Below are positions 4,866-32,027 of a stretch of 64,000 nucleotides of DNA, piece by piece (position 1 is the stretch's first letter; each line of letters starts with the position of its first letter). Both the position numbers and the translations under genes were made by a program. The stretch lies in the NCBI RefSeq assembly GCF_028736035.1, contig NZ_CP117866.1, positions 1,674,001 to 1,738,000 of the forward strand, written 5' to 3'. This DNA is from Streptomyces sp. T12. GTDB lineage: Bacteria; Actinomycetota; Actinomycetes; Streptomycetales; Streptomycetaceae. The notes beneath the pieces were generated by a model that worked only from the letters and a program-made list of their open reading frames with translations, searched no databases and had not been told where the DNA came from.

Positions 4866-6377
4866 ATGACGGACAAGTTCGTCGCCGCTATCGACCAGGG
4901 CACGACCTCCAGCCGCTGCATCATCTTCAACCAGGACGGCGCCATCGTGGCCGTCGACCAGCGCGAGCACCGCCAGATCTTCCCCAAGCCCGGCTGGGTG
5001 GAGCACGACGCCACGGAGATCTGGTCCAAGGTGCAGGCCGTGGTCGCCGGGGCGATCGCCAAGGCGGGGCTGCGCGCCGACCAGCTCAGCGCCCTGGGCA
5101 TCACCAACCAGCGCGAGACGACGGTCCTGTGGGACCGCGCGACGGGCAAGCCGGTGCACAACGCGATCGTGTGGCAGGACACGCGTACTGCGGCGCTGTG
5201 CAACCAACTCGGTGGTTCGGATGGGCAGGATCGTTTCCGCGAGCAGACCGGGCTACCGCTCGCCAGCTACTTCTCCGGCCCCAAAGCGGCCTGGCTGCTG
5301 GACAACGTGCCCGGCCTCAGGGCTCGCGCCGAGCATGGCGAGATCGCCTTCGGCACCATCGACTCCTGGCTGATCTGGAACCTCACCGGCGGCACGGACG
5401 GCGGGCACCACGTCACCGACGTGACGAACGCCGGGCGCACCATGCTGATGAACCTGGAGAGCCTGCAGTGGGACTCCTCGATCCTGTCCGCCATGAACGT
5501 GCCCGAGGCCGTCCTGCCGGAGATCAAGTCCTCCGCCGAGGTGTATGGAACCGCAGTCGGACAGCTGTCCGGCGTGCCCGTCGCGTCTGCGCTTGGCGAC
5601 CAGCAAGCGGCCGTGTTCGGGCAGGCCTGCTACGACGTGGGCACGGCGAAGAACACGTACGGCACGGGTAGCTTCCTGCTGCTCAACACGGGCAACCGGC
5701 CGGTGCCGTCGAAGAACGGGCTGCTGACGACCATGGGCTACAAGATCGGCAGCGAGGCGCCCGTGTACTGCCTGGAGGGGTCGATAGCGATAACGGGCGC
5801 GCTGGTCCAATGGTTCCGGGACCAGCTCGGCATCATCCGCACCGCCGACGAGATCGAGTCCCTGGCGGCAAGCGTCGAGGACAACGGAGGCGCGTACATC
5901 GTGCCCGCCTTCTCCGGCCTGTTCGCCCCGTATTGGCGCTCCGACGCGCGCGGTGTCATCACCGGACTGACGCGGTACGTCACCAAGGCGCACCTCGCGC
6001 GCGCGGTGCTGGAGGCGACGAGCTGGCAGACGCGCGAGGTCGTGGACGCCATGTACCAGGACTCCGGGGTGCAGATCACGACCCTGAAGGTCGACGGCGG
6101 CATGACGAAGAACAACCTGCTCATGCAACACCAGGCGGATGTGCTCGACGTGCCCGTGATCCGGCCCAAGGTCTCCGAGACGACGTGTCTGGGTGCCGCC
6201 TACGCGGCAGGACTGGCCACGGGCGTATGGAACGACCTGGACGAGCTCAAGGCGCACTGGGCGAAGGACGCCGAGTGGACGCCCTCCATGACTGCCGCCG
6301 TGCGTGACCGCGAGTACCACAACTGGCGCAAGGCGGTGGAGAAGAGCTTCGGCTGGCAGGAGGACGGCGACAACTGA
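4866..6377 (+). CDS. glpK: Glycerol kinase
   Basis: A full-length FGGY-family kinase of 503 residues, the usual GlpK size. The N-terminal phosphate-binding motif DQGTTSSR (10-17) and the conserved [10 protein letters not shown] and DGGMTKNN segments are intact. It phosphorylates glycerol to sn-glycerol-3-phosphate in the cytosol, trapping what GlpF admits. A GAAGGGG ribosome site precedes the ATG. It is convergent with cvnD, and a strong hairpin lies between the two stops. Confidence 0.95.
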
Positions 6378-6504: not shown

Positions 6505-7110
6505 TCAGGTGCTCACCGTCTGACGGCGGTCCGCCTGGTAGGCCATCGCGTGCTGGACGACGCCGATGAGGGTCTCCTTGACGGACTCCCGGTCACGGGC
6601 GTCGCACAGCAGCAGCGGTACGCCGTCGTCGAGGTCGAGGGCCTGCCGGATGTCCTCCTCCGGGTAACGCGCGGCTCCCTCGAAGCAGTTGACGCCGACG
6701 ACGAAAGGTATGGAACGCCGTTCGAAGTAGTCCACGGCCGCGAAGCAGTCCTCGAGGCGGCGCGTGTCGGCGAGGACGACGGCGCCGAGCGCGCCCTCCG
6801 AGAGCTCGTCCCACATGAACCAGAACCGCTCCTGGCCGGGCGTGCCGAAGAGGTACAGCACCAGGTCCTCGCGCAGCGTGATGCGGCCGAAGTCCATGGC
6901 GACGGTGGTGGTGCGCTTGCCCTCGACACCGCTCGTGTCGTCGACCGGGCGCCCGGCCTCGGTGAGCAGTTCCTCGGTGCGCAGCGGCCTGATCTCGCTG
7001 ACCGCGCCGACGAGGGTGGTCTTGCCCACGCCGAAGCCGCCGGCCACCAGGATCTTGAGCGTGACGGGTTCGACCGGAGGCTTCCCGCGCTCAGAACGCC
7101 CGAAGATCAT
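6505..7110 (-). CDS. cvnD: Conservon GTPase CvnD
   Basis: A 201-residue Ras/MglA-like small GTPase. The P-loop GGFGVGKT is at 24-31, the switch II-like [13 protein letters not shown] near 88-100, and VNCFEG probably acts as the nucleotide-specificity region. CvnD is the G-protein-like component of the membrane-associated CvnA-B-C-D heterocomplexes of Streptomyces, which affect development and antibiotic production. The ATG at 7110 is chosen because GGAGAA precedes it by 8 bp. This start lies inside the 3' end of the hydantoinase/oxoprolinase gene (20-bp overlap), so translation is coupled to that gene rather than to cvnC as in ordinary conservons. Confidence 0.92.
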
Positions 7111-10100
7111 CGATCTCTTCTCCTGCTTGATGGGGGTCGTGCGACGGTGGGCCGTAGCCTCCGCCGCCGGGGGTTTCGATGACGAGTACGTCGCCGGGGC
7201 CGACGTCGGCCGAGTCGCTTCCGGCGAGTGCAGTGGCCGTGCCGTCCGCACGTTCGACGCGGTTGGCTCCCAGCGCGCCGGGTTCGCCGCCCGCCATGCC
7301 GTACGGCGGGACCCTGCGGTGCTGGGACAGCGTGGAGACGGTCATGGGCTCGTGGAACCGGATACGGCGCACAGCGCCGTCCCCGCCGTGCCACTGCCCG
7401 GCGCCGCCGCTGCCGTGCCGTAGGGCGAACTCCTCGAGCTGTACGGGCAGTCGCCACTCCAGCACTTCGGGATCGGTGAGCCGTGAGTTGGTCATGTGGG
7501 TCTGGACGACGGGCGCGCCGGCGAACCCGTCGCCCGCGCCGGATCCTGAGGCCACGGTCTCGTAGTACTGGTGGCGTTCGTTGCCGAAGGTGACGTTGTT
7601 CATGGTGCCGGAGCCCTCGGCCTGGACGCCCAGTGCGGCGTAGAGGGCGCCGGTGATCGCCTGGGACGTCTCCACGTTGCCCGCGACCACCGCCGCCGGG
7701 GGTTCGGGAGCGAGCATGGAACCGGGCGGCACGATGATCTCGAGGGGGCGCAGGCAGCCGTCGTTGAGCGGGATGTCGTCGGCCACGAGGGTGCGAAAGA
7801 CGTACAGGACCGCCGCGTTGACGACCGAGAAGGGGGCGTTGAAGTTCGTGGCCAGCTGCGGGGAGGTGCCGGTGAAGTCGACCGTGGCGGAGCGGTTCTC
7901 ACGGTCCACGCGCACGCGTACACGGATGACGGCGCCGGAGTCGGTCTCGTAGGCGTATTCGCCGTCGTCCAGGGCGTCGATGACGCCGCGTACCGCTTCC
8001 TCCGCGTTGTCCTGGACGTGCTTCATGTACGCCTGGACGACGTCGAGGCCGAAGTGCTCGATCATGCGCGCGACTTCGTCGACGCCCTTCTGGTTGGCCG
8101 CGATCTGGGCGCGCAGATCGGCGAGGTTGGTCTTCGGGTTGCGGGAGGGGTAGGGCGCCTCGGTGAGCAGGCGGCGGGTCTCCTCCTCGCGGAAGCGGCC
8201 GTTGTCGGCGAGTAGCCAGTTGTCGAAGAGGATGCCCTCCTCCTCGATGGTGCGGCTGTTGGCGGGCATGGAGCCGGGGGCGATGCCGCCGATCTCGGCG
8301 TGGTGGCCGCGTGAGGCGACGTAGAAGAGGATCCGGTCACCCTCCGTGCTTGCGGTGTCGAAGACCGGGGTGATCACGGTGACGTCGGGCAGGTGGGTGC
8401 CACCGTGGTAAGGGTCGTTGACGGCGTAGGTGTCGCCGGGACGCATCCGGGAGCCGCGGCGCCGGATGACCTCCTTGACGCTGGTGCCCATCGAGCCCAG
8501 ATGGACGGGGATGTGCGGGGCGTTGGCCACCAGGTTTCCATCCGGGTCGAAGAGCGCGCAGGAGAAGTCCAGGCGTTCCTTGATGTTGACGGACTGGGCG
8601 GTGGACTCGAGGCGGGCGCCCATCTGTTCGGCGATGGACATGAAGAGGTTGTTGAAGACCTCGAGGAGAACCGGGTCGGCTTCTGTGTTGAGCTCGGAAC
8701 TCTGCGTAACCGCCGTGCGTTCCATGACCAGATGCCCGCCGTCGGTCGTCACGGCTTGCCAGCCGTCGTCGACGACGGTCGTCGCGCTGGCCTCGGTGAT
8801 GATCGCCGGGCCGGTGACGGTCTGGCCGGGAGGCAGGTCCTCGCGGCGGTGGAGGGGTGCGTCGCGCCAGGTGCCGCCCGTGTGAAGGCGGACGGACCGC
8901 GGGGTGGCCGGGCTGCCTTCAGGGGTGGCTTCGTAGGGAGCGAGAGCAGAGAGATCGGGGGGTTCGGTGAGGCCGGTGGCTTCGACGGAGAGGGCTTCGA
9001 CGACGATCGGGCGGTCGAGGGTGAAGGAGTACGTGGCGCGATGACGATCTTCGAAGGCGCGCCGCATGGTGTCGGGGTCGGTGAGTTCGACGGTAAGGGT
9101 GGTGTCGGTGCCGTCGTAGCGGAGTTGGGCGCGTCGAGTGACCTTGATGCGGTCCTCGGGGACGTCCTCGTCGAGGAGTTCGCTGCGGGCAGCGGATTCG
9201 AGGTCGTCCGCGGTCTTCAGGACGCCGGGCATGGAGGTGGCCTCCAGGGGTGCCTCGGCGGACTGTTCGCGCATGGCCGTGGTGTCGGCGAGGCCGATGC
9301 CGAGCGCGGAGAGGACACCGGCCATGGGGGGCACGAGAACGGTGCGGATACCGAGCGAGTCGGCGACCATGCACGCGTGCTGGCCACCCGCACCACCGAA
9401 GGTGGTGAGCGCGTAGCGGGTGACGTCGTGGCCCTTCTGGACGGAGATCCGTTTCACGGCGTTGGCGATGTTGGCGACCGCGATCTGCAGGTAGCCCTCG
9501 GCGACCTGCTCAGGGGTGCGGTCGTCGCCGGTCTGCTCACGGATGTCGCGCGCGAGGGCGGTGAAGCGCTCACGGACGAGGACGTCGTCAAGAGGCTGGT
9601 CGCCTTCAGGGCCGAACACCTGGGGAAAATGGCCGGGTTGGATGCGGCCGAGCATGACATTGGCGTCCGTGACCGCGAGCGGGCCGCCGCCCCGGTAGCA
9701 GGCGGGTCCCGGGTCCGCGCCCGCCGAGTCCGGCCCTACGCGATAGCGGGAGCCGTCGAAGTGGAGGACCGAGCCGCCGCCTGCCGCGACGGTGTGGATG
9801 TCCAGCATGGGGGCGCGCAGGCGGACGCCAGAGATCTGTGTGGTGAAGACCCGTTCGTACTCGCCGGCGAAGTGCGAGACATCGGTGGAGGTGCCGCCCA
9901 TGTCGAACCCGATGACGCGGTCGAAGCCGGCGAGCTGCGACATGCGTGCCATGCCGACGATGCCTCCGGCGGGGCCGGACAGGATGGCGTCCTTGCCGCG
10001 GAACTGCCCGGCTTCGGCGAGACCGCCGTTGGACTGCATGAACATCAGCCGTACGCCTGCGAGCTCGTCGGCGACGTGCTGGACGTAGCGGCGCAGCACG

Positions 10101-10732
10101 GGCGAGAGGTAGGCGTCGACGACAGCGGTGTCCCCACGCGGGACGAGTTTCATCAGAGGGCTGACCTCGCTCGACAGCGAGATCTGCGGGAAGCCGACGC
10201 GGGCGGCGAGCTCGCCGACGGCCTGTTCGTGGACGGGGTGGAGGTGGCTGTGCATGCAGACCACGGCGACGGCTCGGATCCCGTCGTCGTACGCCTCCTG
10301 GAGGGGGCCGGTGAGGGCTTCCAGGTCGGGGGCGCGCAGGACGGTGCCGTCGGCGGCGATGCGTTCGTCGACCTCGACGACCCGTTCGTAGAGCAGCTCG
10401 GGGAGTTCGATGCGGCGGGCGAAGATGCGGGGCCGGTTCTGGTAGGCGATGCGCAGGGCGTCGCGGAAGCCGCGGGTGATGACCAGCAGGGTCCGCTCGC
10501 CCTTGCGCTCGAGGAGGGCGTTCGTGGCGACCGTCGTGCCCATCCGGACGGCCTCGATGGGCTGGTCCTGGGAGCCGTCCAGCAGATCACGTACGCCCGC
10601 GACAGCCGCGTCGGAGTATCGCGCCGGGTTCTCCGACAGGAGTTTGTGGGTCAGCAGACGGCCGTCCGGGCGTCGCGCGACGATGTCCGTGAAGGTGCCG
10701 CCACGGTCGACCCAGAACTGCCAGCCTGTCAT
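7091..10732 (-). CDS. 5-oxoprolinase/hydantoinase (HyuA-HyuB fusion)
   Basis: A 1213-residue protein. Residues 1 to about 690 are the HyuA/hydantoinase A type ATPase half, with the ASKHA phosphate motif [10 protein letters not shown] near 9-18. The rest is the HyuB half, with [12 protein letters not shown] and a glycine-rich C terminus (GGGGYGPP). Fused full-length members hydrolyse 5-oxo-L-proline to glutamate with ATP, although many bacterial homologues act on hydantoins or other lactams. The gene begins 24 bp after the cvnC stop and overlaps cvnD by 20 bp, so it is embedded in the conservon operon. Substrate assignment is by family only. Confidence 0.87.
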
Positions 10733-10756
10733 GTCGCTACCCCGCTTCCACGCCGC

Positions 10757-11152
10757 TCACAGCGCCCGCAGGCCGTTGATCACGTCGCGCAGAATACTCT
10801 CGTCCACCAGCTCGGCAGGCGGTACGGGCCGGTTCACATGGACGAATTCCGCGTCCACGAGATCCCCGACGAGGACCCGTACGACTCCGATGGGCAGGTC
10901 GAGCTCGGCGGAGAGTTCGGCAACGGACTGCGGGGCGTCACGGCACAGTTCGACGATGTCCACGTGCTCCGGGGACAGCATCGAGTCCGCTTCCGGGTCG
11001 TCCGCGTGCGGTTCCGCGACGACCACCGCGATCAGGTCGAGGCGGTGCTGGGCCGCACTGGTGGTGCGGCCGCGCGTCATGGCGTACGGACGGACGACCG
11101 GTCCGGCCTCGTCGTCGAACCAGTGACTTCTTCCCTGACCGTCAGCGCTCAT
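10757..11152 (-). CDS. cvnC: Conservon DUF742 protein CvnC
   Basis: A 131-residue DUF742 protein with a winged-helix-like C-terminal half (SVAELSAELDLPIGVVRVLV), the standard third component of conservons. It starts 9 bp after the cvnB stop. In characterised conservons CvnC joins a complex with the membrane histidine-kinase-like CvnA; its biochemical activity is not established. The next gene on the strand is the oxoprolinase rather than cvnD. Confidence 0.92.
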   Translation of the reverse strand: MSADGQGRSHWFDDEAGPVVRPYAMTRGRTTSAAQHRLDLIAVVVAEPHADDPEADSMLSPEHVDIVELCRDAPQSVAELSAELDLPIGVVRVLVGDLVDAEFVHVNRPVPPAELVDESILRDVINGLRAL

Positions 11153-11161
11153 GCCATCCCA

Positions 11162-11599
11162 CTACCCGCCCGCGGGCAGATCGGTGCGCGGAGCGGTACC
11201 CAGATGCACTCCGACCCGCTTGACGAGGAGCGTCATCTCGTACGCGACCAGGCCGACGTCCGAATCGGCATCCGAGAGCACGGCGAGGCAGCTGCCGTCG
11301 CCTGCGGCCGTCACGAACAGGAAGGCGTCATCGAGCTCGACGACCGTCTGCCGGACGTTGCCCGCCTCGAAGTGGCGGCCCACGCCCTTGGCCAGGCTGT
11401 GGAACCCGGACGCGACGGCGGCCAGGTGCTCGCTGTCCTCGCGGGTCAGATCCTTGGACACCCCCGTCGGCAGGCCGTCGCCGGAGAGCACGAGGGCCTT
11501 ACGGATGCTGGCAACGCGGTCCACCAGGTCGTCGAGGAGCCAGTTGAGCTCGCCGGACTGGTTGGTCGCGGTGTGGCCGGTCGCCTTCGGTGCGGTCAT
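11162..11599 (-). CDS. cvnB: Conservon roadblock/LC7 protein CvnB
   Basis: A 145-residue roadblock/LC7-domain protein (the LNWLLDDLVDRV start and the FLFVTAAGDGSCLAVL strand are typical). Roadblock proteins such as MglB act as partners or GAPs of small GTPases, which fits a role toward CvnD. Its ATG overlaps the cvnA stop by 4 bp (ATGA), so the two are translationally coupled. Confidence 0.93.
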   Translation of the reverse strand: MTAPKATGHTATNQSGELNWLLDDLVDRVASIRKALVLSGDGLPTGVSKDLTREDSEHLAAVASGFHSLAKGVGRHFEAGNVRQTVVELDDAFLFVTAAGDGSCLAVLSDADSDVGLVAYEMTLLVKRVGVHLGTAPRTDLPAGG

Positions 11600-14442
11600 C
11601 GACCGTCCCCCTTAGTCGTTCCTTGTGCTGTGCCGCTGTGGGCGTCGTCGCCCGCGGCGTTCTCCTGGCGGCCGCGCTGCCAGCCGCGCTGGAGCGATGC
11701 CATTCGGCTGCGTACCTCGTCCGCGTCCCGCTCGACGAGTTCCGCGCTCTCCTCGGCGCGGCGAGCGGGGCCCTGCTTGAGCTGCGGCGCCAGGCTGGCC
11801 TGTCGTACGCGCCGGGGCAGCGGACCCGAACCTGAGCCGCTCTCCCGCTGCGCGGCGGGCGTGCTCGGAGCGGCAGGGTCGGGGCCGCTCGATGCGATCG
11901 CCGCACGCCGCGTGCGCCTTGGATGGGCTGCGGGCTCCGGCGGCTCACCTCGGTCGTGTCCGGCGCTGGGCGGCGTGGCGGCACGGTCGCCGATTCGGTC
12001 CTGCGCGCTGGTCAGCTCGCCGCGGGGTCCTGTGTCGCGTCGGCGGGTCGGCAGCGGAGCGAGACCGTTCGGCTCCGGGCGGCTCGGGCCTGCGGAAGGG
12101 GCCGTGTCCGCCTCCTCTCGCCGGGAACGCTGCTCGGTGACCGGGCGTCCGTGCGAACTGACCAGCTTGGGCGTCCGGCGGCGGGGCAGCGGGACCGGGG
12201 CGCTCACATCGTCATCCGTGTCGGGCCGGTCCGGTCCGCCATGGATGCCGGAGACCGGGTGTTCGCCGAGCGACCCAGACGCCTCGTCCTCCACATGGGC
12301 CAGAGCGCGGCGCGGGCGGAAGAGTCCGCCGCGCTCGCTGTCCTCGTCGTCGAGCGCGTCCGGGAAGTCGCTGAGCGCGTCCAGGTCGACGGGGGCCTCC
12401 AGCTCGACCGGTCCGTCCAGGAGCGAGGCGGGCAGGCCGGGCACGCGGGCCGGCACATGGGCGAGGGCGGCGCGGCGCGCCTCCTCCAGCTCGGCCTCCT
12501 TCGACGGCGTGGGCCGGTCGAGACGGAACCCGATGCCGTTGGTGTCCGGGACGTCGTCGGTGAGCAGCGCGTCGGGGATGAAGACGACGGCGGTGGTGCC
12601 GCCGTACGGCGACGGCTGCAGCGAGACCCGGACGTTCTGCCGCTGGGCGAGCCGGCTGACCACGAACAGGCCGAGCCGGTCGGTGTCGGACAGCTCGAAC
12701 TCGGGCGTCTCGGCGAGCCGGAGGTTGGCGTCCAGCAGGGCGTCGGCCGCCATGCCCAGGCCGCGGTCGTGGATCTCCAGGGTGAAGCCGTTGGCGACCC
12801 GCTCGCCCAGGACCTGGACTGCGGTGTGCGGCGGGGAGAACACCGTGGCGTTCTCCAGGAGTTCGGCCACGAGGTGCGTGAGGTCCGCGACGGCCGGTCC
12901 GGTGACGGCGACGCGGGGCAGACGTCGGACCTCGATGCGCTCGTAGTCCTCGACCTCGGCGACGGCGGCGCGTACGACGTCCATGAGCTGGACGGGCTTG
13001 CGCCACTGCCGGGAGGGGGCGGCGCCGGAGAGGATCACGAGCCCCTCGGCGTGCCGACGCATACGGGTGGTCAGGTGGTCGAGGCGGAACAGGTCGGCGA
13101 GTTCGTCGGTGTCCTCGGTCCGGCGTTCCATGGTGTCGAGGAGCGTGAGCTGCTTGTGGAGGAGGACTTGGCTTCGGCGGGCGAGGTTGACGAAGACCTC
13201 GGCCACGCCGGCGCGCAGTTCCGCCTGCTTGACCGCGGCCTCGACGGCGGCCCGCTGCAGGGTGTTGAGGGCCTGGCCGACCTCGCCGATCTCGTTCTTG
13301 TCGTACTCCAGGCGGGGGACCTCGGTCTCCACGTCGACCTGTTCGCCGGAGGAGAGGCGGCGCATCACACTGGGCAGGCGTACGCCGGAGGCCTCGTGGG
13401 CCTCCAGCCGCAGCTGCCGCAGATCGCGGATGAGGCCGCGGCCGATGCGCACGGACAGGAAGAGCGAGAACAGCAGGGCGAGCAGCCCGAGGACACCGGC
13501 GAAGGCCGCCTTCAGGATGACGCCCATCGCGACCGGGCTCACGCGGTCCTGATAGCGGGCGCCCGCCTCGTCGTTGAGCTTGCTGAGCTCGTCGAGGACG
13601 CTGCCGGCGGCGGTGTCCCAGCTCTTGGCGTCCACCCTGCTGGGCCTGCCTGCCTGGGACAGGATGACGGCCTGTTCGGCGACGCGCAGTGGAGCAGTGG
13701 AGGCGTTGTCCCAGAAGCGCCTGTAGCGTTCACGCTCGGACGAGGGCAGGTCCGACAGGCTGATGTCGTACATGAGGGTGCGCTGGGCCACCAGGTCGGA
13801 GACGTCGCGTATCTCTTCGCGGGACAGCTTCCCGACGACCAGGGCGGAACTCAGCAACGCGTCCTCGCGGGAGAGGAGTTCGCGGGCGCGGGTCACGTTG
13901 AGAAGGGCGCGGGCCTGCTTGTCCATCGCCACGCTGTCGATCCCGTCGAGGGAGCCCAGCAGGGCGTAGCAGGGGTCGACGAGCCGGTTGTAGAGGCCGA
14001 GGGCCTGGGAGCGGGTCACCGTTCCGTCCTCGACGCTGCGGCGCAGGGGGTTGATGCCGTCGAAGGCGTCCAGGACGGCGGTGAGGCGTTCGGCGTCCCC
14101 CTCGTCCATCCCGTCACGGACGTCGGGATCCTTGGCATTCTTGCGGATCTCGGCGACGGCGGCGTCGGTGGCACTCCGGGTTTCCCGCAGCGCGGACAGT
14201 GCGTCCGAGGCCCGGCGGTCGGCGAGATAGACGAGGGCCTGGCGGCGTTCCTGCTGCAGGACGCGGACGGCGTCCTCGGTGGAGTAACCGATCTTCTCGA
14301 CGAGGGACGACACCGTGAACAGCTGGGTCACGCCTCGCCCCGTGAGTACCGTGGCGAAGCCCCAGATCGCGGTCAGGGACACCAGCGGCACGAGAAGCAG
14401 CGCCACCATCTTCCGGCGGATCGACTTCCCGCGAAAGCGCAT
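11596..14442 (-). CDS. cvnA: Conservon sensor histidine-kinase-like protein CvnA
   Basis: A 948-residue membrane protein. It has a TM helix at about 11-30, an extracytoplasmic nitrate/nitrite-sensor (NIT)-like domain, a second TM helix near 305-330, a HAMP-like linker, an HATPase domain at about 495-625 with a G-box (DRGLGMAAD near 553), and a long proline/arginine-rich, probably disordered tail. It heads the conservon and is the presumed signal receiver. The ATG at 14442 is preferred over the open extension to 14481 because GGGGGAGG lies 3 bp upstream. The upstream region is shared with the divergent gene at 14864. Confidence 0.92.
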   Translation of the reverse strand: MRFRGKSIRRKMVALLLVPLVSLTAIWGFATVLTGRGVTQLFTVSSLVEKIGYSTEDAVRVLQQERRQALVYLADRRASDALSALRETRSATDAAVAEIRKNAKDPDVRDGMDEGDAERLTAVLDAFDGINPLRRSVEDGTVTRSQALGLYNRLVDPCYALLGSLDGIDSVAMDKQARALLNVTRARELLSREDALLSSALVVGKLSREEIRDVSDLVAQRTLMYDISLSDLPSSERERYRRFWDNASTAPLRVAEQAVILSQAGRPSRVDAKSWDTAAGSVLDELSKLNDEAGARYQDRVSPVAMGVILKAAFAGVLGLLALLFSLFLSVRIGRGLIRDLRQLRLEAHEASGVRLPSVMRRLSSGEQVDVETEVPRLEYDKNEIGEVGQALNTLQRAAVEAAVKQAELRAGVAEVFVNLARRSQVLLHKQLTLLDTMERRTEDTDELADLFRLDHLTTRMRRHAEGLVILSGAAPSRQWRKPVQLMDVVRAAVAEVEDYERIEVRRLPRVAVTGPAVADLTHLVAELLENATVFSPPHTAVQVLGERVANGFTLEIHDRGLGMAADALLDANLRLAETPEFELSDTDRLGLFVVSRLAQRQNVRVSLQPSPYGGTTAVVFIPDALLTDDVPDTNGIGFRLDRPTPSKEAELEEARRAALAHVPARVPGLPASLLDGPVELEAPVDLDALSDFPDALDDEDSERGGLFRPRRALAHVEDEASGSLGEHPVSGIHGGPDRPDTDDDVSAPVPLPRRRTPKLVSSHGRPVTEQRSRREEADTAPSAGPSRPEPNGLAPLPTRRRDTGPRGELTSAQDRIGDRAATPPSAGHDRGEPPEPAAHPRRTRRAAIASSGPDPAAPSTPAAQRESGSGSGPLPRRVRQASLAPQLKQGPARRAEESAELVERDADEVRSRMASLQRGWQRGRQENAAGDDAHSGTAQGTTKGDGR

Positions 14443-16002: not shown

Positions 16003-17157
16003 GTGTCCCCCACTTACGACGTGATCGTCATCGGTCTCGGCGGCATGGGCAGCGCCGCCGCCCACCACCTCTCCTCGCGTGGCGCCCGCGTGCTCGGTCT
16101 GGAGAAGTTCGGCCCGGTGCACAACCGCGGCTCCAGCCACGGCGGTTCACGCATCACCCGGCAGTCGTACTTCGAGGACCCGGCGTACGTCCCGCTGCTG
16201 CTACGCGCCTACGAGCTGTACGACGACCTGGAGCGGTCCACCGGCAGGGACATCGCCACCCTCTGCGGCGGCGTCATGATCGGACGCCCCGACACGCCGG
16301 CCGTCTCCGGCTCGCTGCGCTCGGCCCAACAGTGGGACCTGCCGCACGAGATGCTGGATGCGAAGGAGATCCGCCGCCGCTTCCCGACGCTCGCGCCGAA
16401 GGACGACGAGGTGGCGCTGTACGAGAGGAAGGCCGGTCTCCTGCGGCCGGAGAACACGGTCGCCGCTCATGTCCAGCTGGCCACCCAGCAGGGCGCCGAC
16501 CTGCACTTCGAAGAGCCGATGACCCGCTGGGAGCCGTACCGGGACGGAGTCCGCGTCCACACGGCCGAGAACACCTACACCGCCGGCCAGTTGGTGATCT
16601 GCCCGGGCGCATGGGCGCCGCAGCTGCTGACCGATCTCGGGGTGCCGTTCACCATTGAGCGGCAGGTCATGTACTGGTTCCAGCCGAAGCACGGTATTGA
16701 TCCGTTCCGCCCCGAGAACCAACCCATCTACATCTGGGACGACGCGGACGGCGTCCAGGTCTACGGGTTCCCGGCCATCGACGGCCCCGATCTCGGTGCC
16801 AAGGTCGCCTTCTTCCGCAAGGGCGAGGTCACCACCCCGGAGACCATCGACCGGACGGTTCATGAGGAGGAGATCCGGGCCATGGCGGACCACATATCCG
16901 GCTGCATCCCGGACCTGCCCGGCACCTTCCTCAAGGCCGCCACCTGCATGTACTCCATCACCCCCGACGAGCACTTCGTCATCGCCCGCCACCCCGCGCA
17001 CCCGGAGTCGGTCACCGTGGCCTGCGGGTTCTCCGGGCACGGCTTCAAGTTCGTGCCCGTCGTCGGCGAGATACTCGCCGACCTCGCCCTGACCGGCACC
17101 ACCGAGCACCCCATCGGCCTGTTCGACCCCGCCCGCCTCGCCGCCACGCCCGCCTGA
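16003..17157 (+). CDS. Monomeric sarcosine/N-methyltryptophan oxidase-like flavoenzyme
   Basis: A 384-residue DAO-family flavoprotein. The FAD-binding motif GLGGMG is at 11-16, and Cys315 in the ATCMYS context is at the same position as the covalent flavin cysteine of monomeric sarcosine oxidase. Such enzymes oxidise N-methyl or secondary amines to an imine/aldehyde, releasing H2O2. The GTG start at 16003 follows TAGGAG with 6-bp spacing. The APC permease downstream may import the amine substrate, but 618 bp separate them, so co-transcription is not certain. The exact substrate (sarcosine, N-methyltryptophan or pipecolate) cannot be read from sequence. Confidence 0.85.
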
Positions 17158-19335: not shown

Positions 19336-19424
19336 GTTTCGACGAATTCAAGCCCTACCGCCCGTCCTGCACCGTGAAGAGGGACGCGGACAGCTCGGTC
19401 ATGTCGTCGGTGCGGGCCGTTTGA
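19332..19424 (+). pseudogene. 30-codon remnant of a gene coupled to the permease
   Basis: A GTG overlaps the permease stop (GTGA), the usual layout for a translationally coupled partner, but the frame closes after 30 codons and collides with the 3' end of the convergent SMC gene (ends 19399). The first dozen residues (MSFDEFKPYRPS) look protein-like; the rest reads through antisense of the other operon. A truncated partner gene is an inference; a chance overlap is possible. Confidence 0.3.
19355..19402 (-). pseudogene. 15-codon ATGA-overlapping frame after the SMC ATPase gene
   Basis: An ATG overlaps the stop of the SMC-like ATPase gene (ATGA, 19399-19402), exactly where a jetD/mksG nuclease gene would start in a four-gene system, but the frame ends after 15 codons (MTELSASLFTVQDGR). 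There is no ribosome site beyond the overlap itself. It may be the stub of a deleted fourth gene or a coincidence. Confidence 0.25.
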
Positions 19425-22400
19425 ACATCCGTGTCGCCGTGATCTCGCTGTGCACCGCTTCCTCCGCCTGGGGCTGCTGCGGCAGTCCCGGGCGGAGGTG
19501 TTCCTCGACCCTGATGTACTTCAGGCCGGCCCTGAGGTCGGCGTCGTTGCGCAGCCGGATGACCAGCGGGAACTCTGCCAGCGCTGTCGTGTCGAACAGG
19601 CCCGTGGTGTAGAGGAGCTGGACGCCGAGCGCATCCGATACGGCTCGCTGGAGCTCCAGCAGATACGTCGCGTTGGCGCGCCCGATCGGGTTGTCCAGGA
19701 ACAGTGTCCCGGCGTGCCGGTGCTTGTCCCGCCCCCGGTCGTTCGACCGCAGCGCCGCCATCGTGCAGTACAGCGCGATGGCCGCCGTCAGCAGCTGACC
19801 ACCGGAGAACACATCGCCCATCTGGCCGACGGGCACCCGCTCCGCACGCAGTACGGCATCCGGCTTGAGGATCTCGACTGCGACCCCCTTGGGCTGGAGC
19901 GCCGCAGCGACGCCGCGCAGCAGCAGGGACATGCCGTCCCGCCTCAGGTCCGAGTTCTTCTTCACCGCCGCCCGCGTCGCCTCGTCGATCACCTCGCCCA
20001 GTCGTTCGGTGAGGGTGGCCTGGTCGGGTTCCTCGAAGCGGATGCGCAGGAACTCCTGCCCGGACCACTCGCCGAGCCCCTCCGGCAGCCGGGAGAGCCG
20101 CTGGGCGGACCTCAGCGTGGCCAGTGCCGACTCGACCAGGCCCCGGAGCCGGTCCACGATCGAGTCCCGGTTCCGCTCCAGCTGCGCCAACTCGTCGGTG
20201 AGTACGCGGAGTCGGGGTGCGAAGGCGTCCGCCCACTTCTGCGCGTGCTCGGGCAGCGCCGAGGCGGGCAGCTCGCGGATCTGCTGGCGAGCAGGGGTGC
20301 GGACCTGCTCGTAGCGCGTGGAGTTGGCGTGCCGGACGAGCACGTCGCTCGCCTCGCGCACGGCGGCCTCGGCGGCGGAGAGGTCGGCGGCGCAGCCGCG
20401 CAGCGAACGGCGGGCCTCTGCGGCGGACTGCCGAGCCTCCTCAAGATTGCCGGGGTACGGCTCGGGCTCCTCCTGCTCCTCCTCCGAGGTGTGCTCGCGC
20501 AGCAGGTCGCGCAGCATCGCGGCGATCTCGTCGAAGCCGCCCGCCGCGTCCTCGGCGGCGCGGTGCGCTTCGAGGAGTTCCGCGTGCGCCTCGCGGGCCT
20601 GCGCCAACGCCTCGGTGCGGGAGGCGAGTTCGGCGGACGCCGTGCGCAGCAGCGTCTGTGCGTGCTCGGCGTCGCGCGGCTGGAGTTCCTCGGACAGCTC
20701 GGTGTGCGCCTCGCCGTCCTCGGGCGCGTGCCGCTCGGCCTCGCCGCGCAGCCGGCCGAGTTGCTCGCTCGCGCTGGACATCCGGGTCTCCAGGAGCTGG
20801 ACCAGCTCCTCCGCGCGCGCGGCGGCCGCTTGCCGGGAGGGCCCGTCGGAGCCGTCAGGTGACTGAAGGAGCTGTTCGGCCCGGGTACGGACCTTGTTGC
20901 TCAGCCGGTCCAGCTCCGCGCGCGCCGCGCTCTCGTCGCTCTCCGCGCGGGCCTGCTCGGCCCGCAGATCGGCGCCGACCCCGACCTTCTCGTACACCTG
21001 GGAAGCTGCCCGGTACGCCTCACGGAGCGCGGGCAGGGACGCCCTCGGGGCGTCCGCGTCGGTGTCCGGTACGTCGTCGGGGGCGCCCGCGATCTCCGAG
21101 CGCTCGGCGCGCAGGGCACGCGCGGTGCGGCGCGCGTCGTCGGCGGCGCGCTGAGCGGCACGGCGGTCCTCGTCGGCGGCGCGAGCGCGCTCCAGGCAGG
21201 TCTGGGCGCGGGCCTCGGACTCGGTGGCCTCGTCGGCGAGTTCGCGCAGCTTGACCTGCCAGCCGGCCCGCTCGCGCAGCCGGAAGGCCAGCCCGGCCAG
21301 GGCGTCGGCGGCGCGCCGCGCCTTCTGTGCGGCCTCCTGCCGCTCGTCGCGGACCTGGGCGGCCTCGGCGGCGGCTTCGTCGGCCTCGGCCCGTACGGTC
21401 CGTGCCTCGGCCAGCTCGGCCTCGGACTCCTCGGCGAACGCGCGCGCGTCCCGGGCCGCCTGCGCCAACTCGACCAGCCGCCCGGCCGGACAGCCGGTCC
21501 GCCACGAGGCGAGCCGCGCCGCAAGCTCCCGGTCCTTGCCGAGCCGCGCGGCGAGGGTGCGGATCTCCTCGTCCCGCTCGGTCGCCCGGGCGCGCAGCGC
21601 CTGCCGCTCCTCGTCGGCGGCGTGCTCGTCGTGCATGGCGGGGTTCGGCGGTACGAGGAATACGTCGCCGCTCTGCGCATCGGCGGCCGGGGTCGGGGCG
21701 AGCAGGGCGGCCGCCGTGCCCACGGCTACGGCCGACCGTGGCAGCAGGGCCGCGTCGCCGAGCGCCTCGCGGGCACGCGCGTGCGTGTCGGGGTCGGTGA
21801 TGATCACGCCGTCGACGAGCTCCGGCCGGGCGGCCAGCACGCGCGCGTGGTCGGTGGGGTCGACGGCCTGGGCGAGGTAGCGCCAGCCCGGCAGGGCCGG
21901 GATGCCCTGCTCGCCGAGGAACTCCACGGTGGCCAGCACGTCCGGACCGGGCGGCAGCAGCCCGCCGTCACCGAGCGCGCCCAGGATCCGGGAGTCGTCG
22001 GCGGCGGCCGTACGCAGTTCGAAGAGCTGGCGCTCGGCTGCGGAGACGGCGTCGTCGAGAAGCTCACGCAGTTCGTCGGCGAACCGGTCCAGCTCCTCCG
22101 GGGTGAGGGCACCGTCGGCGGGGACGTTCGAAGCGACGTCCTCCTGGCCGGCGCGCGCGGTCGTGGGCGCCTTCTCGTCGTCACCCGTGCGGGGGCCGGG
22201 CACGGACCCGCGCTTCACGCCGGACCCGCCGGTCAGGCTCAGCAGCTCGGCCAGCCGCTCCTCCCCCGCCAGCGCCTCGGCCAGGCGATGTTCCGCCTCG
22301 TACGACCGTTCCGCCGCCGTGGCCGCATCCGCCGCGCGAGCCGCCGTCAGTTCCGCGCGGGATTCGGCCGATGCCGCCTCGCGCGCGTGCTCGGAGGCTC

Positions 22401-24072
22401 GCCGGGAGGCCTCGCGGGCGGTGTCCCAGGCGGCGACGGCCGTCTTCTCGGCGTCGCTCGCGGCGAGGGCCGCGCGCGCCGGGTCGGCGTCGGGCGCGCT
22501 GTCGTCGAGCCAGCCCGCGCGTACGGCCTCGGCGGTCTCCTGCTCGACCTCCGACAGCCGCTGCCGCAGATGCCCGACCTCACTGCGGGCCCGCTGTGCC
22601 TCGGTGGCGGCGGCGGTGGAGTCCCGGTACGCGGACTCGCTGACCTCCTGGAGCGCTGCGGACCGCTCCTCCCCCTCGTTGGCGAGGGTCTCTGCGCTCT
22701 CCGCGGCCGCGTGCAGGGCCCGTACGAGATCGACGGCGGCCTTGGCGCGGGCGGCCAGCGCGGGGGCCGCGTCGCGCTCCGCCTCCTGGATGGCGGCGGC
22801 CACGCGTGCGACGCGGTCGGCGGCGGCGCGGTGCCGCAGGGCGGTCTCGGCGGCCTGCCAGGCGGAGTGCAGCGTGCGCGCTTCGGCGAGCTCGCGCTTC
22901 TGGGCGGCCGCCGACTTCTCGGCCGCGGCGAGCGCCAGCGAGGCGTGGCGGTAGGCGAGTTCGGCGGCGATCAGCGCGCTGCGCTCCCGCGCCGCCTCGG
23001 AGTGGGTCACGGCGTACGCGGCGGCGGTGACCCGCTGGGCGAGGTCGGCCGCCCGGACGCGCTCCTGGACTCCCCGCGCGGAGAGCCGCCGGGCCAGGGT
23101 CCGGGTCCGCCGCTCGGCACCGGCGTGGATGTCCCGCGCGCGTGAGCGTGCCTCGGCGGCTTCCACGATCCGCCCGAGCAGGTCGACGGACCCGGCGGTG
23201 AAGTCCCGTTCGGCGATCAGCTCGGCGCGTCGGCCCAGCTTGTTGCCGAAGCCGCTGACCAGGTCGGCGAGGCCGTCGGTGTCCCGCGTGTCCGTCACGG
23301 CCCGCAGCAGCAGGTCGGTGAAGTCGGAGTCCTTCTTGACCGCGAAGAGGCCGGCCGCCTCGCCCTCGTCGGCGTTCATCTCGCGCTGGTAGCGGAAGAG
23401 TTCGGGGTCGAGGCCGAGGTCGCCGAGGTGCTCGATCCACCGGTCGTGGATCTCCTCCCAGTGCACCTCCAGATGCGGATACGCCTTGCCCGCCTCCGTG
23501 ATGGCGTCCCGGAAGCCCTTCATGGTGCGGCGGCGCCCCTGCGCGCCCGACTGGCCCTCGACGGGCCGCCGTACGGCGGTGGACTCGGCGACGGGCAGAT
23601 TGTCCAGGCTCAGCCCGGGCCCCGGGCGGAAGGAGTACCAGGCCTCGGCGAACTTCCGCGGGTCGTTGGAGACCTGGCGCCCGCGCCACTCGCTGACCTT
23701 GCCGACCACGACGCACTCACCGGTGAGCGTGTGCTGCCACTCCAGCGCGACATGCCCGCAGTCGTCGGCGAGCAGGAACTTCCGCAGCACACCGGAGCTG
23801 GCGCCACCGAGGGTGTTGCGGTGGCCCGGCAGCATCACAGAGAAGATCAGCTTGAGCAGGACCGACTTGCCGCCGCCGTTCTCCAGGAAGAGCACCCCGG
23901 CGGGTGCGGGCCGGCGCGGCGGGCCGACGGGCTCCTCCTCGAAGAACTCCGCCTGCGTCGGTGCGGGGTCGGGCACGGGCTCGCCGACACCGCGCAGGTC
24001 CAGCACGGTGTCGGCGTAACGCGCACCGGCCGGTCCGATGGAGTAGAGGCGGACCCGGGACAGCTCGTACAT
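19399..24072 (-). CDS. SMC-like ATPase of MukB/JetC type
   Basis: A 1557-residue ATPase with split head motifs. The Walker A-like LENGGGKSVLLKL is near residue 63, and the FSGGQ signature and TLFLDNPIG Walker B lie in the last 170 residues. Between them is a very long Ala/Glu/Arg-rich coiled coil broken by a hinge-like region around 620-860 (containing WRYLAQAVD and LVPPNPAM). This is the layout of MukB, MksB and JetC. The residue after the Walker B aspartate is Asn rather than the usual catalytic Glu. It is the last gene of a three-gene operon, 57 bp after the MukE/JetB-like gene. Expected role: loop-extruding DNA motor acting on chromosome or plasmid DNA. Confidence 0.82.
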   Translation of the reverse strand: MYELSRVRLYSIGPAGARYADTVLDLRGVGEPVPDPAPTQAEFFEEEPVGPPRRPAPAGVLFLENGGGKSVLLKLIFSVMLPGHRNTLGGASSGVLRKFLLADDCGHVALEWQHTLTGECVVVGKVSEWRGRQVSNDPRKFAEAWYSFRPGPGLSLDNLPVAESTAVRRPVEGQSGAQGRRRTMKGFRDAITEAGKAYPHLEVHWEEIHDRWIEHLGDLGLDPELFRYQREMNADEGEAAGLFAVKKDSDFTDLLLRAVTDTRDTDGLADLVSGFGNKLGRRAELIAERDFTAGSVDLLGRIVEAAEARSRARDIHAGAERRTRTLARRLSARGVQERVRAADLAQRVTAAAYAVTHSEAARERSALIAAELAYRHASLALAAAEKSAAAQKRELAEARTLHSAWQAAETALRHRAAADRVARVAAAIQEAERDAAPALAARAKAAVDLVRALHAAAESAETLANEGEERSAALQEVSESAYRDSTAAATEAQRARSEVGHLRQRLSEVEQETAEAVRAGWLDDSAPDADPARAALAASDAEKTAVAAWDTAREASRRASEHAREAASAESRAELTAARAADAATAAERSYEAEHRLAEALAGEERLAELLSLTGGSGVKRGSVPGPRTGDDEKAPTTARAGQEDVASNVPADGALTPEELDRFADELRELLDDAVSAAERQLFELRTAAADDSRILGALGDGGLLPPGPDVLATVEFLGEQGIPALPGWRYLAQAVDPTDHARVLAARPELVDGVIITDPDTHARAREALGDAALLPRSAVAVGTAAALLAPTPAADAQSGDVFLVPPNPAMHDEHAADEERQALRARATERDEEIRTLAARLGKDRELAARLASWRTGCPAGRLVELAQAARDARAFAEESEAELAEARTVRAEADEAAAEAAQVRDERQEAAQKARRAADALAGLAFRLRERAGWQVKLRELADEATESEARAQTCLERARAADEDRRAAQRAADDARRTARALRAERSEIAGAPDDVPDTDADAPRASLPALREAYRAASQVYEKVGVGADLRAEQARAESDESAARAELDRLSNKVRTRAEQLLQSPDGSDGPSRQAAAARAEELVQLLETRMSSASEQLGRLRGEAERHAPEDGEAHTELSEELQPRDAEHAQTLLRTASAELASRTEALAQAREAHAELLEAHRAAEDAAGGFDEIAAMLRDLLREHTSEEEQEEPEPYPGNLEEARQSAAEARRSLRGCAADLSAAEAAVREASDVLVRHANSTRYEQVRTPARQQIRELPASALPEHAQKWADAFAPRLRVLTDELAQLERNRDSIVDRLRGLVESALATLRSAQRLSRLPEGLGEWSGQEFLRIRFEEPDQATLTERLGEVIDEATRAAVKKNSDLRRDGMSLLLRGVAAALQPKGVAVEILKPDAVLRAERVPVGQMGDVFSGGQLLTAAIALYCTMAALRSNDRGRDKHRHAGTLFLDNPIGRANATYLLELQRAVSDALGVQLLYTTGLFDTTALAEFPLVIRLRNDADLRAGLKYIRVEEHLRPGLPQQPQAEEAVHSEITATRMFKRPAPTT

Positions 24073-24129
24073 GGCGGACTCTCGTAAGTCTTCGTCTGAG
24101 TCTTTGTCAGATCAGGGATGTTCGGGGCT

Positions 24130-25011: not shown

Positions 25012-25063
25012 GGTTTCGGCTCCTTGCTGGGGTGTTGCTCGTACGTACGGTTCTCGGCGCGGC

Positions 25064-26590: not shown

Positions 26591-26708
26591 GGTGCACAGA
26601 CTAGGTCCTCGGTCTGACAACGACCCAAACGTCGGCGCTCCGCCGGGAGAGCCGGGAACCGCAGGTCATCTTGTCGCTGCGGGTTGTCGCTGCGGGTCGC
26701 CCGTGGAT

Positions 26709-26757
26709 GCTCGCGGCCACGCGGCGGAGCCGCATACCGATACAGCCCCGCGCCCCT
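26709..26757 (-). repeat. Interspersed Streptomyces intergenic repeat, copy 1
   Basis: Read on the minus strand, this 49-bp stretch matches the element at 49024-49072 at about 43 of 49 positions, including identical 19-bp and 18-bp blocks (the second is TGCGGCTCCGCCGCGTGG). It begins at the stop codon of the GntR gene and contains GCGG-CCGC pairing that can form a hairpin, so it may act as a terminator-like element. Confidence 0.7.
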
Positions 26758-27451: not shown

Positions 27452-27584
27452 GCCCGGAATTCAACCGCAGACACGAGAACGAAACAACACGGGTATTGAA
27501 GGATCGTTCAACGATCCTCTACCTTACTGCTCACTGTTCAGCTCAGCTCCGCACCCTCCGTCCCCCCCCCTCTGCGAGGTGCCC

Positions 27585-29728: not shown

Positions 29729-29788
29729 AAGCGCCCGAAGATACCTGAAATCACCTCAAAGTGCCTGACACGAGACACGGAAGGATCC

Positions 29789-30547
29789 ATGACCTCGATC
29801 GATCTCAACGCCGACCTCGGCGAAGGCTTCGGCCGCTGGCAGCTCACCGACGACGAACGGCTGCTGTCCGTCGTCACCAGCGCCAACGTGGCCTGCGGCT
29901 TCCACGCCGGGGACGCGGCCACCATGCGGCGGGTGTGCGAGCAGGCGGCCGAGCGCGGGGTACGGATCGGCGCCCAGGTCTCCTACCGGGACCTCGCGGG
30001 GTTCGGGCGGCGCGCGATGGACGTGCCGCCCGCCGAGCTGGCGGCGGAAGTGGCCTACCAGATCGGCGCCCTGGAGGTTTTCGCGCGAGCGGCGGGCACG
30101 CGCGTGTCGTACGTCAAGCCGCACGGCGCGCTCTACAACCGCGTCGTGCACGACGAGGAGCAGGCCGGCGCGGTCGTCGACGGGGTGCTCCTCGCGGACG
30201 CCACGCTGCCCGTGCTCGGCCTGCCCGGCTCGCGGGTGCTGGATCTGGCCGCCAAGGCCGGACTCCCGGCCGTCACGGAGGCGTTCGCGGACCGCGCGTA
30301 CACCGAGCGGGGCACGCTCGTGCCACGCGGCCAGGACGGCGCCGTGGTCACCGACCCGGAGGCCGTCGTGGAGCGCTCGGTGGGCCTGGCCCGCTCGGGC
30401 GTGGTCGCCTCGCACTCAGGGGTTGCCGTCGAGGTACGCGCGCGTTCCCTGTGCCTGCACGGGGACACGCCCGGCGCCGTCGAGCTGGCCCGCCGGGTGC
30501 GGGCACGGCTGGAGGAGTCGGGTGTCCGGGTGGAGGCGTTCGTATGA
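29789..30547 (+). CDS. pxpA: 5-oxoprolinase subunit A (LamB/YcsF)
   Basis: A 252-residue LamB/YcsF protein with the family signatures LNADLGEGFG at 5-14, ANVACGFHAGD, and VKPHGALYN. With PxpB and PxpC it forms the prokaryotic ATP-dependent 5-oxoprolinase that opens 5-oxoproline to glutamate. GGAAGG stands just before the ATG. The stop overlaps the pxpB start (ATGA), so subunit synthesis is coupled. Confidence 0.94.
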   Translation: MTSIDLNADLGEGFGRWQLTDDERLLSVVTSANVACGFHAGDAATMRRVCEQAAERGVRIGAQVSYRDLAGFGRRAMDVPPAELAAEVAYQIGALEVFARAAGTRVSYVKPHGALYNRVVHDEEQAGAVVDGVLLADATLPVLGLPGSRVLDLAAKAGLPAVTEAFADRAYTERGTLVPRGQDGAVVTDPEAVVERSVGLARSGVVASHSGVAVEVRARSLCLHGDTPGAVELARRVRARLEESGVRVEAFV

Positions 30548-31161
30548 GGGCGCTGCCGGTCGGGGACGACGCCCTGCTCGTCCAGGTGTCCTCGGGCGAG
30601 GAGGCCCAGGCACTGCACGCGGAGTTCCTCCGGCGCCGTACGGAGGGCTCGCTGTCGGTCCGCGAGATCGTCCCCGCCGCCCGCACGGTCCTGCTCGACG
30701 GCCTCGCCGACCCGGTCCGCCTGGCCTGCGAACTGACCACGGCCGAAGTGCCGCCCGCTCCCCCACACGCGCGTGACGTCGTCGAACTCCCGGTGCGCTA
30801 CGACGGCCCGGACCTGGCCGAGGTCGCCGCGCACTGGGGCGTCACCGCACGCGAGGTGGCCCGCCTCCACGCGGGCACCGAATTCAGCGTTGCCTTCTGC
30901 GGTTTCGCCCCCGGATTCGGCTATCTGACCGGCCTGCCGCCCCGCTACGACGTCCCTCGCCGGGCCACTCCGCGCACGGCCGTACCGGCAGGTGCGGTGG
31001 CACTGGCAGGCCCGTACACGGGCGTCTACCCGCGTTCGTCGCCGGGTGGCTGGCAGCTGATCGGCACCACGGACACGGTGCTGTGGGACCACACGCGTGT
31101 GCCGGCCGCGCTGCTGTCACCGGGCACGCGCGTGCGCTTCGTTCCGGTGGGAAGCGCATGA
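30544..31161 (+). CDS. pxpB: 5-oxoprolinase subunit B (KipI-like)
   Basis: A 205-residue allophanate-hydrolase-subunit-1 (AHS1) family protein with the diagnostic FCGFAPGFGYLTGLP stretch and the late GGWQLIGTTDTVLWD segment. It is homologous to B. subtilis KipI, first described as an inhibitor of the sporulation kinase KinA and later shown to be part of 5-oxoprolinase. ATGA overlaps at both ends lock it into the pxpABC operon. Confidence 0.93.
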   Translation: MRALPVGDDALLVQVSSGEEAQALHAEFLRRRTEGSLSVREIVPAARTVLLDGLADPVRLACELTTAEVPPAPPHARDVVELPVRYDGPDLAEVAAHWGVTAREVARLHAGTEFSVAFCGFAPGFGYLTGLPPRYDVPRRATPRTAVPAGAVALAGPYTGVYPRSSPGGWQLIGTTDTVLWDHTRVPAALLSPGTRVRFVPVGSA

Positions 31162-32027
31162 GCGACCGCGCGCTGTCCGTCGTACGCGCCGGGGCGCTCA
31201 CCACCGTGCAGGACCTCGGCCGCCCCGGGCACGCCCACCTCGGCGTGCCCCGCTCGGGAGCGCTGGACGGGCCCGCGGCGGGGCTCGTCAACCGCCTGGT
31301 CGGCAACACCCCCGAAGCGGCCGTGCTGGAGACCACACTGAGCGGCTGTGCGGTGCGGCCTCGTTCGACGGTGACCGTCGCGGTCGGCGGCGCGCCGTGC
31401 CGCGTCGCGGTGGACGGACGCCCGGTCGCCTGGGGCGCTCCGGTGCGGGTGCCTGCCGGTGCGCTCCTGGACGTCGGCGCGGCCATGTCCGGCGTACGCA
31501 GCTATGTGGCCGTCTCCGGCGGGATCTCCGTCGATCCGGTCCTCGGCAGCCGCTCCACGGACCTCCTGTCCGGCCTCGGCCCGCCGCCCCTCACGGACGG
31601 CGCGGTGCTGCCCCTGGGCCGACCGACGGGGCTTCACGCACGCGTGGACGTCGCCCCGCAGCCGGCGCCCCCCGCCGAACTGGTTCTGCGCGTGACGCTG
31701 GGCCCGCGCGACGACTGGTTCACCCCTGAGGCCGTGCGTGCCTTCACCGCCCGCGTGTACAGCGTCTCCCCCGCGAGCAACCGCATCGGGCTGCGCACCG
31801 AGGGCCCTGCCCTGGAACGGGCCCTGACCAGCGAACTCCCCAGCGAGGGCGTCGTCCTGGGCGCGGTCCAGGTACCGCCCGACGGCCGGCCGGTCGTGTT
31901 CCTCGCCGACCACCCGACGACGGGCGGCTACCCGGTGATCGCCGTCGTCCGCGCGGCCGACCTCCCGGCCGCCGCCCAGGCGGTGCCGGGCACCCCGGTC
32001 CGCTTCGTGGCCGTGCGCCGTCGCTGA
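31158..32027 (+). CDS. pxpC: 5-oxoprolinase subunit C (KipA-like)
   Basis: A 289-residue AHS2-family protein, with TVQDLGRPGHAHLGVPRSGA near the N terminus and the NRIGLRTEGPAL and DHPTTGGYPVIAVV motifs of PxpC/KipA and the C domain of urea carboxylase-type enzymes. It is the last gene of the cluster and partners PxpB. No clear terminator follows; the convergent SGNH hydrolase gene ends 22 bp away. Confidence 0.92.
   Translation: MSDRALSVVRAGALTTVQDLGRPGHAHLGVPRSGALDGPAAGLVNRLVGNTPEAAVLETTLSGCAVRPRSTVTVAVGGAPCRVAVDGRPVAWGAPVRVPAGALLDVGAAMSGVRSYVAVSGGISVDPVLGSRSTDLLSGLGPPPLTDGAVLPLGRPTGLHARVDVAPQPAPPAELVLRVTLGPRDDWFTPEAVRAFTARVYSVSPASNRIGLRTEGPALERALTSELPSEGVVLGAVQVPPDGRPVVFLADHPTTGGYPVIAVVRAADLPAAAQAVPGTPVRFVAVRRR

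Follow-up and report, generated by a model that had tools for sequence, protein, structure and literature searches.

Conservons are described as signalling operons with the gene order cvnA-cvnB-cvnC-cvnD, followed in a subset by a P450 or GAF accessory gene after cvnD (available parts of PMC8510531 and PMC13343842). As far as the available text of PMC13343842 goes, these accessory genes accompany CvnA proteins without a NIT domain. We analyzed one conservon in a window of 64,000 nucleotides from Streptomyces sp. T12 (contig NZ_CP117866.1, positions 1,674,001 to 1,738,000). It resembles the described systems in encoding all four core proteins in order with a CvnA of the NIT type, the type also present in S. 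coelicolor cvn1-6 (PMC8510531, in part), but differs by a 3.6-kb metabolic gene, hyuAB, which separates cvnC from cvnD. No paper joining conservons with a hydantoinase or oxoprolinase was found in a search mostly outside subscription journals, in which the wider matches listed were judged by title or the start of the abstract.

HyuAB appears to share with the eukaryotic-type ATP-dependent 5-oxoprolinases a single fused HyuA-HyuB chain, the conserved ATP and metal sites and relatives beside pxp genes. The eukaryotic enzymes comprise about 1250 amino acids (available part of PMC8453981). The window protein differs from this type by its site inside a signalling operon, and its activity is predicted. 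The prokaryotic 5-oxoprolinase PxpABC has the same proposed reaction, adjoins many free HyuAB relatives and is encoded as a set in the window, but according to the available parts of PMC8453981 and PMC13274462 it has no sequence similarity to the HyuAB type. The caprolactamase CapAB (6yra) and an N-methylhydantoinase (7hk5) match HyuAB in family and active-site residues; HyuAB differs from CapAB in scoring below the caprolactamase cut-off and in lacking the CapB vicinal disulfide.

Judged from sequence comparison, HyuAB is best read as a captured metabolic passenger in a real, widespread conservon variant. The fused gene would have entered a glpK-linked conservon once, between cvnC and cvnD, in an ancestor shared by a large clade of Streptomyces. 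Before the insertion, the final cvnC codons would have held the ribosome site and start codon of cvnD within a 20-bp cvnC/cvnD overlap. Thereafter HyuAB would read into cvnD and stop at the same position, which suggests that the overlap was taken over from cvnC, and the cvnC tail would have lost the ribosome site and start codon. We infer that HyuAB would be a metabolic enzyme converting 5-oxoproline to glutamate, co-transcribed with the conservon yet functionally separate from it. It would be redundant with pxpABC, dispensable where that set does the job, and deleted about 14 to 16 times with the conservon left whole. We consider this account of single insertion, overlap takeover, metabolic passenger and repeated deletion probable as a whole. 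The sequences show one clade, the same overlap position, repeated absence with a derived signature, some scars, intact catalytic residues and a pxp context of relatives.

The sequence-only reading had described a fused HyuA-HyuB gene that follows cvnA-B-C after a gap of 24 bp and overlaps cvnD by 20 bp. Coordinates and domain matches confirmed this layout:

11596..14442, minus strand: cvnA, sensor-like protein of the histidine-kinase type with NIT (PF08376) and HATPase_c domains; open frame up to 14481
11162..11599, minus strand: cvnB, Robl_LC7 roadblock/LC7 protein, overlapping cvnA by 4 bp
10757..11152, minus strand: cvnC, DUF742 protein with the derived C-terminus LRDVINGLRAL and without the cvnD start codon
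7091..10732, minus strand: hyuAB (the insert), fused chain of 1213 amino acids with Hydant_A_N, Hydantoinase_A, Hydant_A_C and Hydantoinase_B domains
7120..7124, minus strand: Shine-Dalgarno sequence AGGAG of cvnD, within hyuAB, nine bases ahead of the cvnD ATG
7091..7113, minus strand: final hyuAB codons (DDLRAF-stop), running through the start region of cvnD in the same frame as the former cvnC tail (x-GLRAL-stop)
7091..7110, minus strand: hyuAB/cvnD overlap of exactly 20 bp, from the first base of the cvnD ATG (7110) to the last base of the hyuAB stop (7091)
6505..7110, minus strand: cvnD, small P-loop GTPase (ATP_bind_1)
4866..6377, plus strand: glpK, convergent neighbour and synteny anchor for the split and several unsplit conservons

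The CvnA HATPase, CvnB roadblock, CvnC DUF742 and CvnD GTPase proteins are thus encoded in the expected order on one strand, and contiguity is broken by hyuAB between cvnC and cvnD. The NIT domain of CvnA was matched with E=2.5e-43 (Pfam), cvnB and cvnC lie 9 bp apart, and 24 bp separate cvnC from hyuAB. The convergent neighbours are glpF and glpK. In the remaining 12 conservons identified in the genome, at most about 125 bp lie between the matches to cvnC and cvnD; a 13th, weak DUF742 match has no further cvn gene inside its 8.2 kb. The proposal that cvnD translation starts inside the metabolic gene also stood, as both the ribosome site and the ATG lie within hyuAB and the final hyuAB codons are constrained.

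To be a one-strain oddity the arrangement is too frequent. Of 131 Streptomyces genomes sampled, each with a completeness of 95% or more, 38 have this HyuAB (E<=1e-150) next to this cvnD; we did not find the architecture in print. By identity to the window protein, 39 of the 131 genomes carried a HyuAB at 81% or more, 51 only a distant one (at most 74%) and 41 none; both kinds together occurred in no genome. Among the 39, only the copy of one genome (G103; we number genomes with G and loci with L) was not beside cvnD. This set comprised the T12 genome itself, 33 genomes matched by eye to neighbouring cvnD coordinates and five that were fetched (four linked, G103 not). A contig scan with HyuAB gave at least 80 loci. 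Among the matches listed, all 25 at 81% identity or more occupied the cvnC/cvnD junction of this conservon, and the 55 at 79% or less had no cvn gene directly adjoining, some of their contigs being short. Four of the latter class (L035, L041, L049, L050) had cvn genes 2.5 to 8.6 kb away. In Amycolatopsis (L035:3795-7475), a different conservon stands divergent, 2.5 kb from a free HyuAB, which may be chance. In 60 genomes picked from the listed CvnD matches, the junction held HyuAB in 39 and not in 21. Since 25 loci (L009-L029, L055, L061, L075, L088) had been selected by HyuAB similarity, they were kept out of the prevalence figures; they inflate the HyuAB share in the tree described below.

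Comparison of 120 loci of this conservon revealed three states of the cvnC/cvnD junction: 72 with HyuAB, 27 with a gap without HyuAB and 21 in which cvnC overlaps cvnD. The outgroup conservons have no HyuAB, and their cvnC runs 20 bp into cvnD, just as hyuAB does in the window. Loci in the overlap state have a cvnC tail of the form LREVI-x-GLRAL-stop; in 17 of 17 distinct loci this tail contains the cvnD ATG, at a distance of 20 bp from the end of cvnC and preceded by a GAGGTGAT-like ribosome site, or GAAGTGAT in two loci. In the HyuAB state, the tail reads LRDVI-x-GLRAL without the ATG in all 69 distinct loci, and the same ATG-less LRDVI tail was present in 23 of 23 gap loci assigned to HyuAB loss. 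Four further gap loci (L114, L192, L197, L198), which fall outside the HyuAB clade, carry the ancestral LREVI tail, also lacking the ATG, so cvnC and cvnD have been separated without HyuAB as well. The 20-bp overlap with cvnD recurred in 61 of the 72 HyuAB loci and is not chance; the 24-bp gap behind cvnC recurred in 55. In the other 11 loci, HyuAB ends between 4 bp inside cvnD and 180 bp ahead of it. The window HyuAB ends I-D-D-L-R-A-F-stop, in the frame formerly used by cvnC, and extends 17 residues beyond the GGGGYGPP motif, compared with 2 and 9 in the free copies L224 and L225. Over the last 10 codons of hyuAB, identity to the window at synonymous sites was 0.99 versus 0.69 overall, based on only 4 informative codons; in the preceding 10 codons it was 0.83, slightly above the best other 100-codon stretch (0.80). 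The overlap looks inherited, because cvnC overlaps cvnD identically in the outgroups without HyuAB, and the simplest reading is that it predates HyuAB and was passed on from cvnC.

A FastTree phylogeny of CvnB-C-D was calculated from 113 distinct loci, after removal of 7 of the 120 with identical proteins, and rooted on L119/L120. One clade (support 0.924) contained all 69 HyuAB loci together with 23 gap loci and no overlap loci. Given one gain, this topology needs 16 losses, or 14 once nodes below 0.8 are collapsed. The tree and the CvnC-tail signature suggest one insertion and about 14 to 16 losses. In all 23 post-loss loci sampled, cvnA to cvnD were open and full-length. So many deletions that spared the signalling genes make HyuAB look more like a passenger than like a functional component of the switch. 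The ancestral, inserted and post-loss versions of this one signalling operon in related species constitute a natural mutant set.

Remnants might be expected in every post-loss gap, but were recognisable in only 8 of 23, the one in L139 by tblastn. In comparison with dinucleotide shuffles, 7 of 15 post-loss gaps reached p=0.005 in at least one of two tests; seven other gaps were too short for this test and L139 was too long. None of three gaps tested outside the clade contained significant HyuAB pieces (L114 5' end, p=0.065). The deletions in L135 and L136 are separate on the tree (by weak nodes) and share a near-identical 3' endpoint; both loci keep a short in-frame HyuAB remnant ending inside cvnD.

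The position of the insert allows a further explanation, translational coupling, in which CvnD is made mostly by ribosomes finishing hyuAB, so that its level follows hyuAB translation and G-protein supply is tied to the enzyme gene. The recurrence of the overlap, the cvnD start signals inside hyuAB and the constrained last codons would suit such coupling, as would L135, L136 and L156, in which the frame is still open from where hyuAB used to start through to the same stop within cvnD. However, the identical overlap with cvnC occurs without HyuAB, cvnD has a strong Shine-Dalgarno sequence of its own, HyuAB ends elsewhere in the 11 loci mentioned, and 4 of the 23 post-loss loci (L144, L167, L175, L187) no longer have the stop at +20. 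We regard translational coupling as rather unlikely; an effect on CvnD expression in genomes retaining HyuAB is possible.

HyuAB might also be a true accessory protein, sensing 5-oxoproline or controlled by CvnD, in the manner of CvnE or CvnF of other conservons. Its fixed position and purifying selection across 69 distinct loci would agree with this, and S. coelicolor CvnF8 binds and stimulates CvnA8 (available part of PMC13343842). In the described cases, as far as the available text goes, accessory genes come after cvnD and accompany a NIT-less CvnA; HyuAB is neither a P450 nor a GAF protein, its gene is internal, and its CvnA has a NIT domain. The repeated losses with cvnA-D retained argue against such a role too, and 20 of the 23 post-loss genomes contain no other HyuAB at E<=1e-150. 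Selection on the conservon was compared by the median pairwise ratio of nonsynonymous to synonymous substitution rates (dN/dS), given here with HyuAB, after loss and in the overlap state, respectively. The values were 0.382, 0.392 and 0.380 for CvnA, 0.127, 0.151 and 0.128 for CvnB, 0.179, 0.188 and 0.215 for CvnC, and 0.186, 0.208 and 0.228 for CvnD. They are similar throughout, CvnB and CvnD being slightly higher after loss than with HyuAB, in a comparison that is only rough because the pairs are not independent. HyuAB itself had a median dN/dS of 0.175. An accessory function appears very unlikely. The earlier proposal of HyuAB as a sensor or target of the conservon, like a requirement of HyuAB for CvnD, was not supported in view of about 14 to 16 losses and similar dN/dS of CvnA-D.

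Non-HyuAB genes, some of them divergent, occupy the cvnC/cvnD junction in three genomes. In L155 (1683-5595), a divergent IclR regulator, a beta-keto acid cleavage enzyme (BKACE) and a 3-hydroxyacyl-CoA dehydrogenase lie between cvnC and HyuAB. L139 (5536-9427) contains these three divergent genes and a thioesterase, with only a 5' piece of HyuAB remaining beside cvnD. The L198 junction holds a MASE1 protein, a SpoIIE-type phosphatase, an alpha/beta hydrolase and a TetR regulator (all Pfam assignments). The IclR/BKACE/dehydrogenase set of L155 and L139 presumably serves carnitine breakdown. Divergent genes at this site should hinder co-transcription, though cvnD is retained. A functional link between HyuAB and CvnD, as first envisaged from the overlap, is not required by the evidence and is disfavoured by the repeated loss, by this other cargo and by the greater age of the overlap. 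A metabolic gene can sit locked inside a signalling operon, and even overlap the start of the next gene, without taking part in the signalling. It could be imagined that metabolic genes are repeatedly captured at the cvnC/cvnD seam, that the oxoprolinase acquired there determines, by way of the inherited overlap, how much CvnD is supplied, with 5-oxoproline or nitrogen status feeding the G protein where the gene is kept, and that post-loss genomes were rewired; we consider this combination improbable.

The fused HyuA-HyuB chain of the window corresponds to the eukaryotic type of 5-oxoprolinase. The alignment placed the ATP-site residues D9 and D277 and the Asp-His-Asp-His metal site D722, H780, D783 and H810 in HyuAB. 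Mutation of the matching residues abolished or nearly abolished caprolactamase activity (available part of PMC8453981). These residues are common to the whole family and do not fix the substrate. Most likely HyuAB belongs to the fused, eukaryotic-type 5-oxoprolinases that depend on ATP, and 5-oxoproline is its likeliest substrate because relatives adjoin pxp genes. Beyond the family level, HyuAB may be closely like the human and yeast 5-oxoprolinases. Another cyclic amide, such as hydantoin, N-methylhydantoin or a different lactam, would be in keeping with the best-scoring solved relative, the N-methylhydantoinase 7hk5, and with a gene at 16003-17157 that scores above the N-methyltryptophan oxidase model cut-off, shows weaker likeness to sarcosine oxidase and could suit N-methylhydantoin breakdown. 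Set against this are the frequent pxp neighbours, the scores of 342 and 168 bits with the caprolactamase NCBIfam models against a cut-off of 1000, and the absence of cysteines opposite the vicinal pair CapB 410/411. Such a substrate seems rather unlikely. For annotation, HyuAB would be a probable second 5-oxoprolinase besides PxpABC in Streptomyces.

The pxp genes of the window form a separate set, 19 kb from hyuAB:

29789..30547, plus strand: pxpA (LamB/YcsF)
30544..31161, plus strand: pxpB (CT_C_D)
31083..32027, plus strand: pxpC (CT_A_B); the open frame starts before the pxpB end, and the true start is probably later

Among Streptomyces-type free loci, pxpC lies within 0.8 kb of HyuAB in 9 of 16, in a neighbourhood corresponding to 31-33 kb of the window. 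By coordinates, PxpA is encoded within 5 kb of a free HyuAB in 8 of 12 genomes with both located and not in the other 4. A relative of the window D-glutamate cyclase gene occurs within 8 kb of HyuAB in five further loci (L033, L064, L080, L081 and L086). G103 displays the run pxpA-pxpB-pxpC-hyuAB (L224:3617-9750), and its conservon (L227) bears the post-loss signature; in this genome HyuAB may have moved between pxp operon and conservon. PxpA was present in 22 of 23 post-loss genomes; this may explain how HyuAB could be dispensed with. A replacement of PxpABC by HyuAB was not supported, as PxpA occurred in 76 of 80 genomes (from a list of 91, with 11 left out), both among those that carry HyuAB and among those that lack it. 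The 4 genomes without PxpA, three with a conservon-linked HyuAB and one (G135) with neither, are too few to weigh. A HyuAB tree of 96 sequences did not support an origin of the insert by transfer, over some 20 kb, of the HyuAB that is syntenic with pxp in Streptomyces. In this tree the linked sequences (41; support 0.995) cluster with free copies from other actinobacteria, including two from Streptomyces itself. Next to pxpC in the window, no trace of a native HyuAB was seen.

Several of these observations weigh against a single captured passenger. The support of 0.924 is a Shimodaira-Hasegawa-like value from short proteins, with many weak inner nodes. The L224 HyuAB, placed in a smaller tree than that of 96 sequences, nests in the linked clade with L188/L200 (0.988) yet follows pxpC, which leaves room for more than one move. 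Remnants were not significant in 8 of the 15 post-loss gaps tested, the nearest being the L149 5' end and the L170 3' end (p=0.08). A pxp gene beside HyuAB was not seen in 7 of the 16 Streptomyces-type free loci, and the insert is not of the pxp-syntenic Streptomyces type. Finally, the fixed site, purifying selection and overlap in most loci would also suit a useful coupling.

The region 26756-32027 encodes a GntR regulator, a major facilitator superfamily transporter, the D-glutamate cyclase (PF07286), PxpA, PxpB and PxpC, and is a probable 5-oxoproline cluster. In Corynebacterium, a pxp operon and its transporter are under a GntR regulator (available part of PMC13274462). At 19399-26620 of the window lie three genes (1557, 324 and 518 amino acids) without a Pfam match, the order of which is kept in many relatives.

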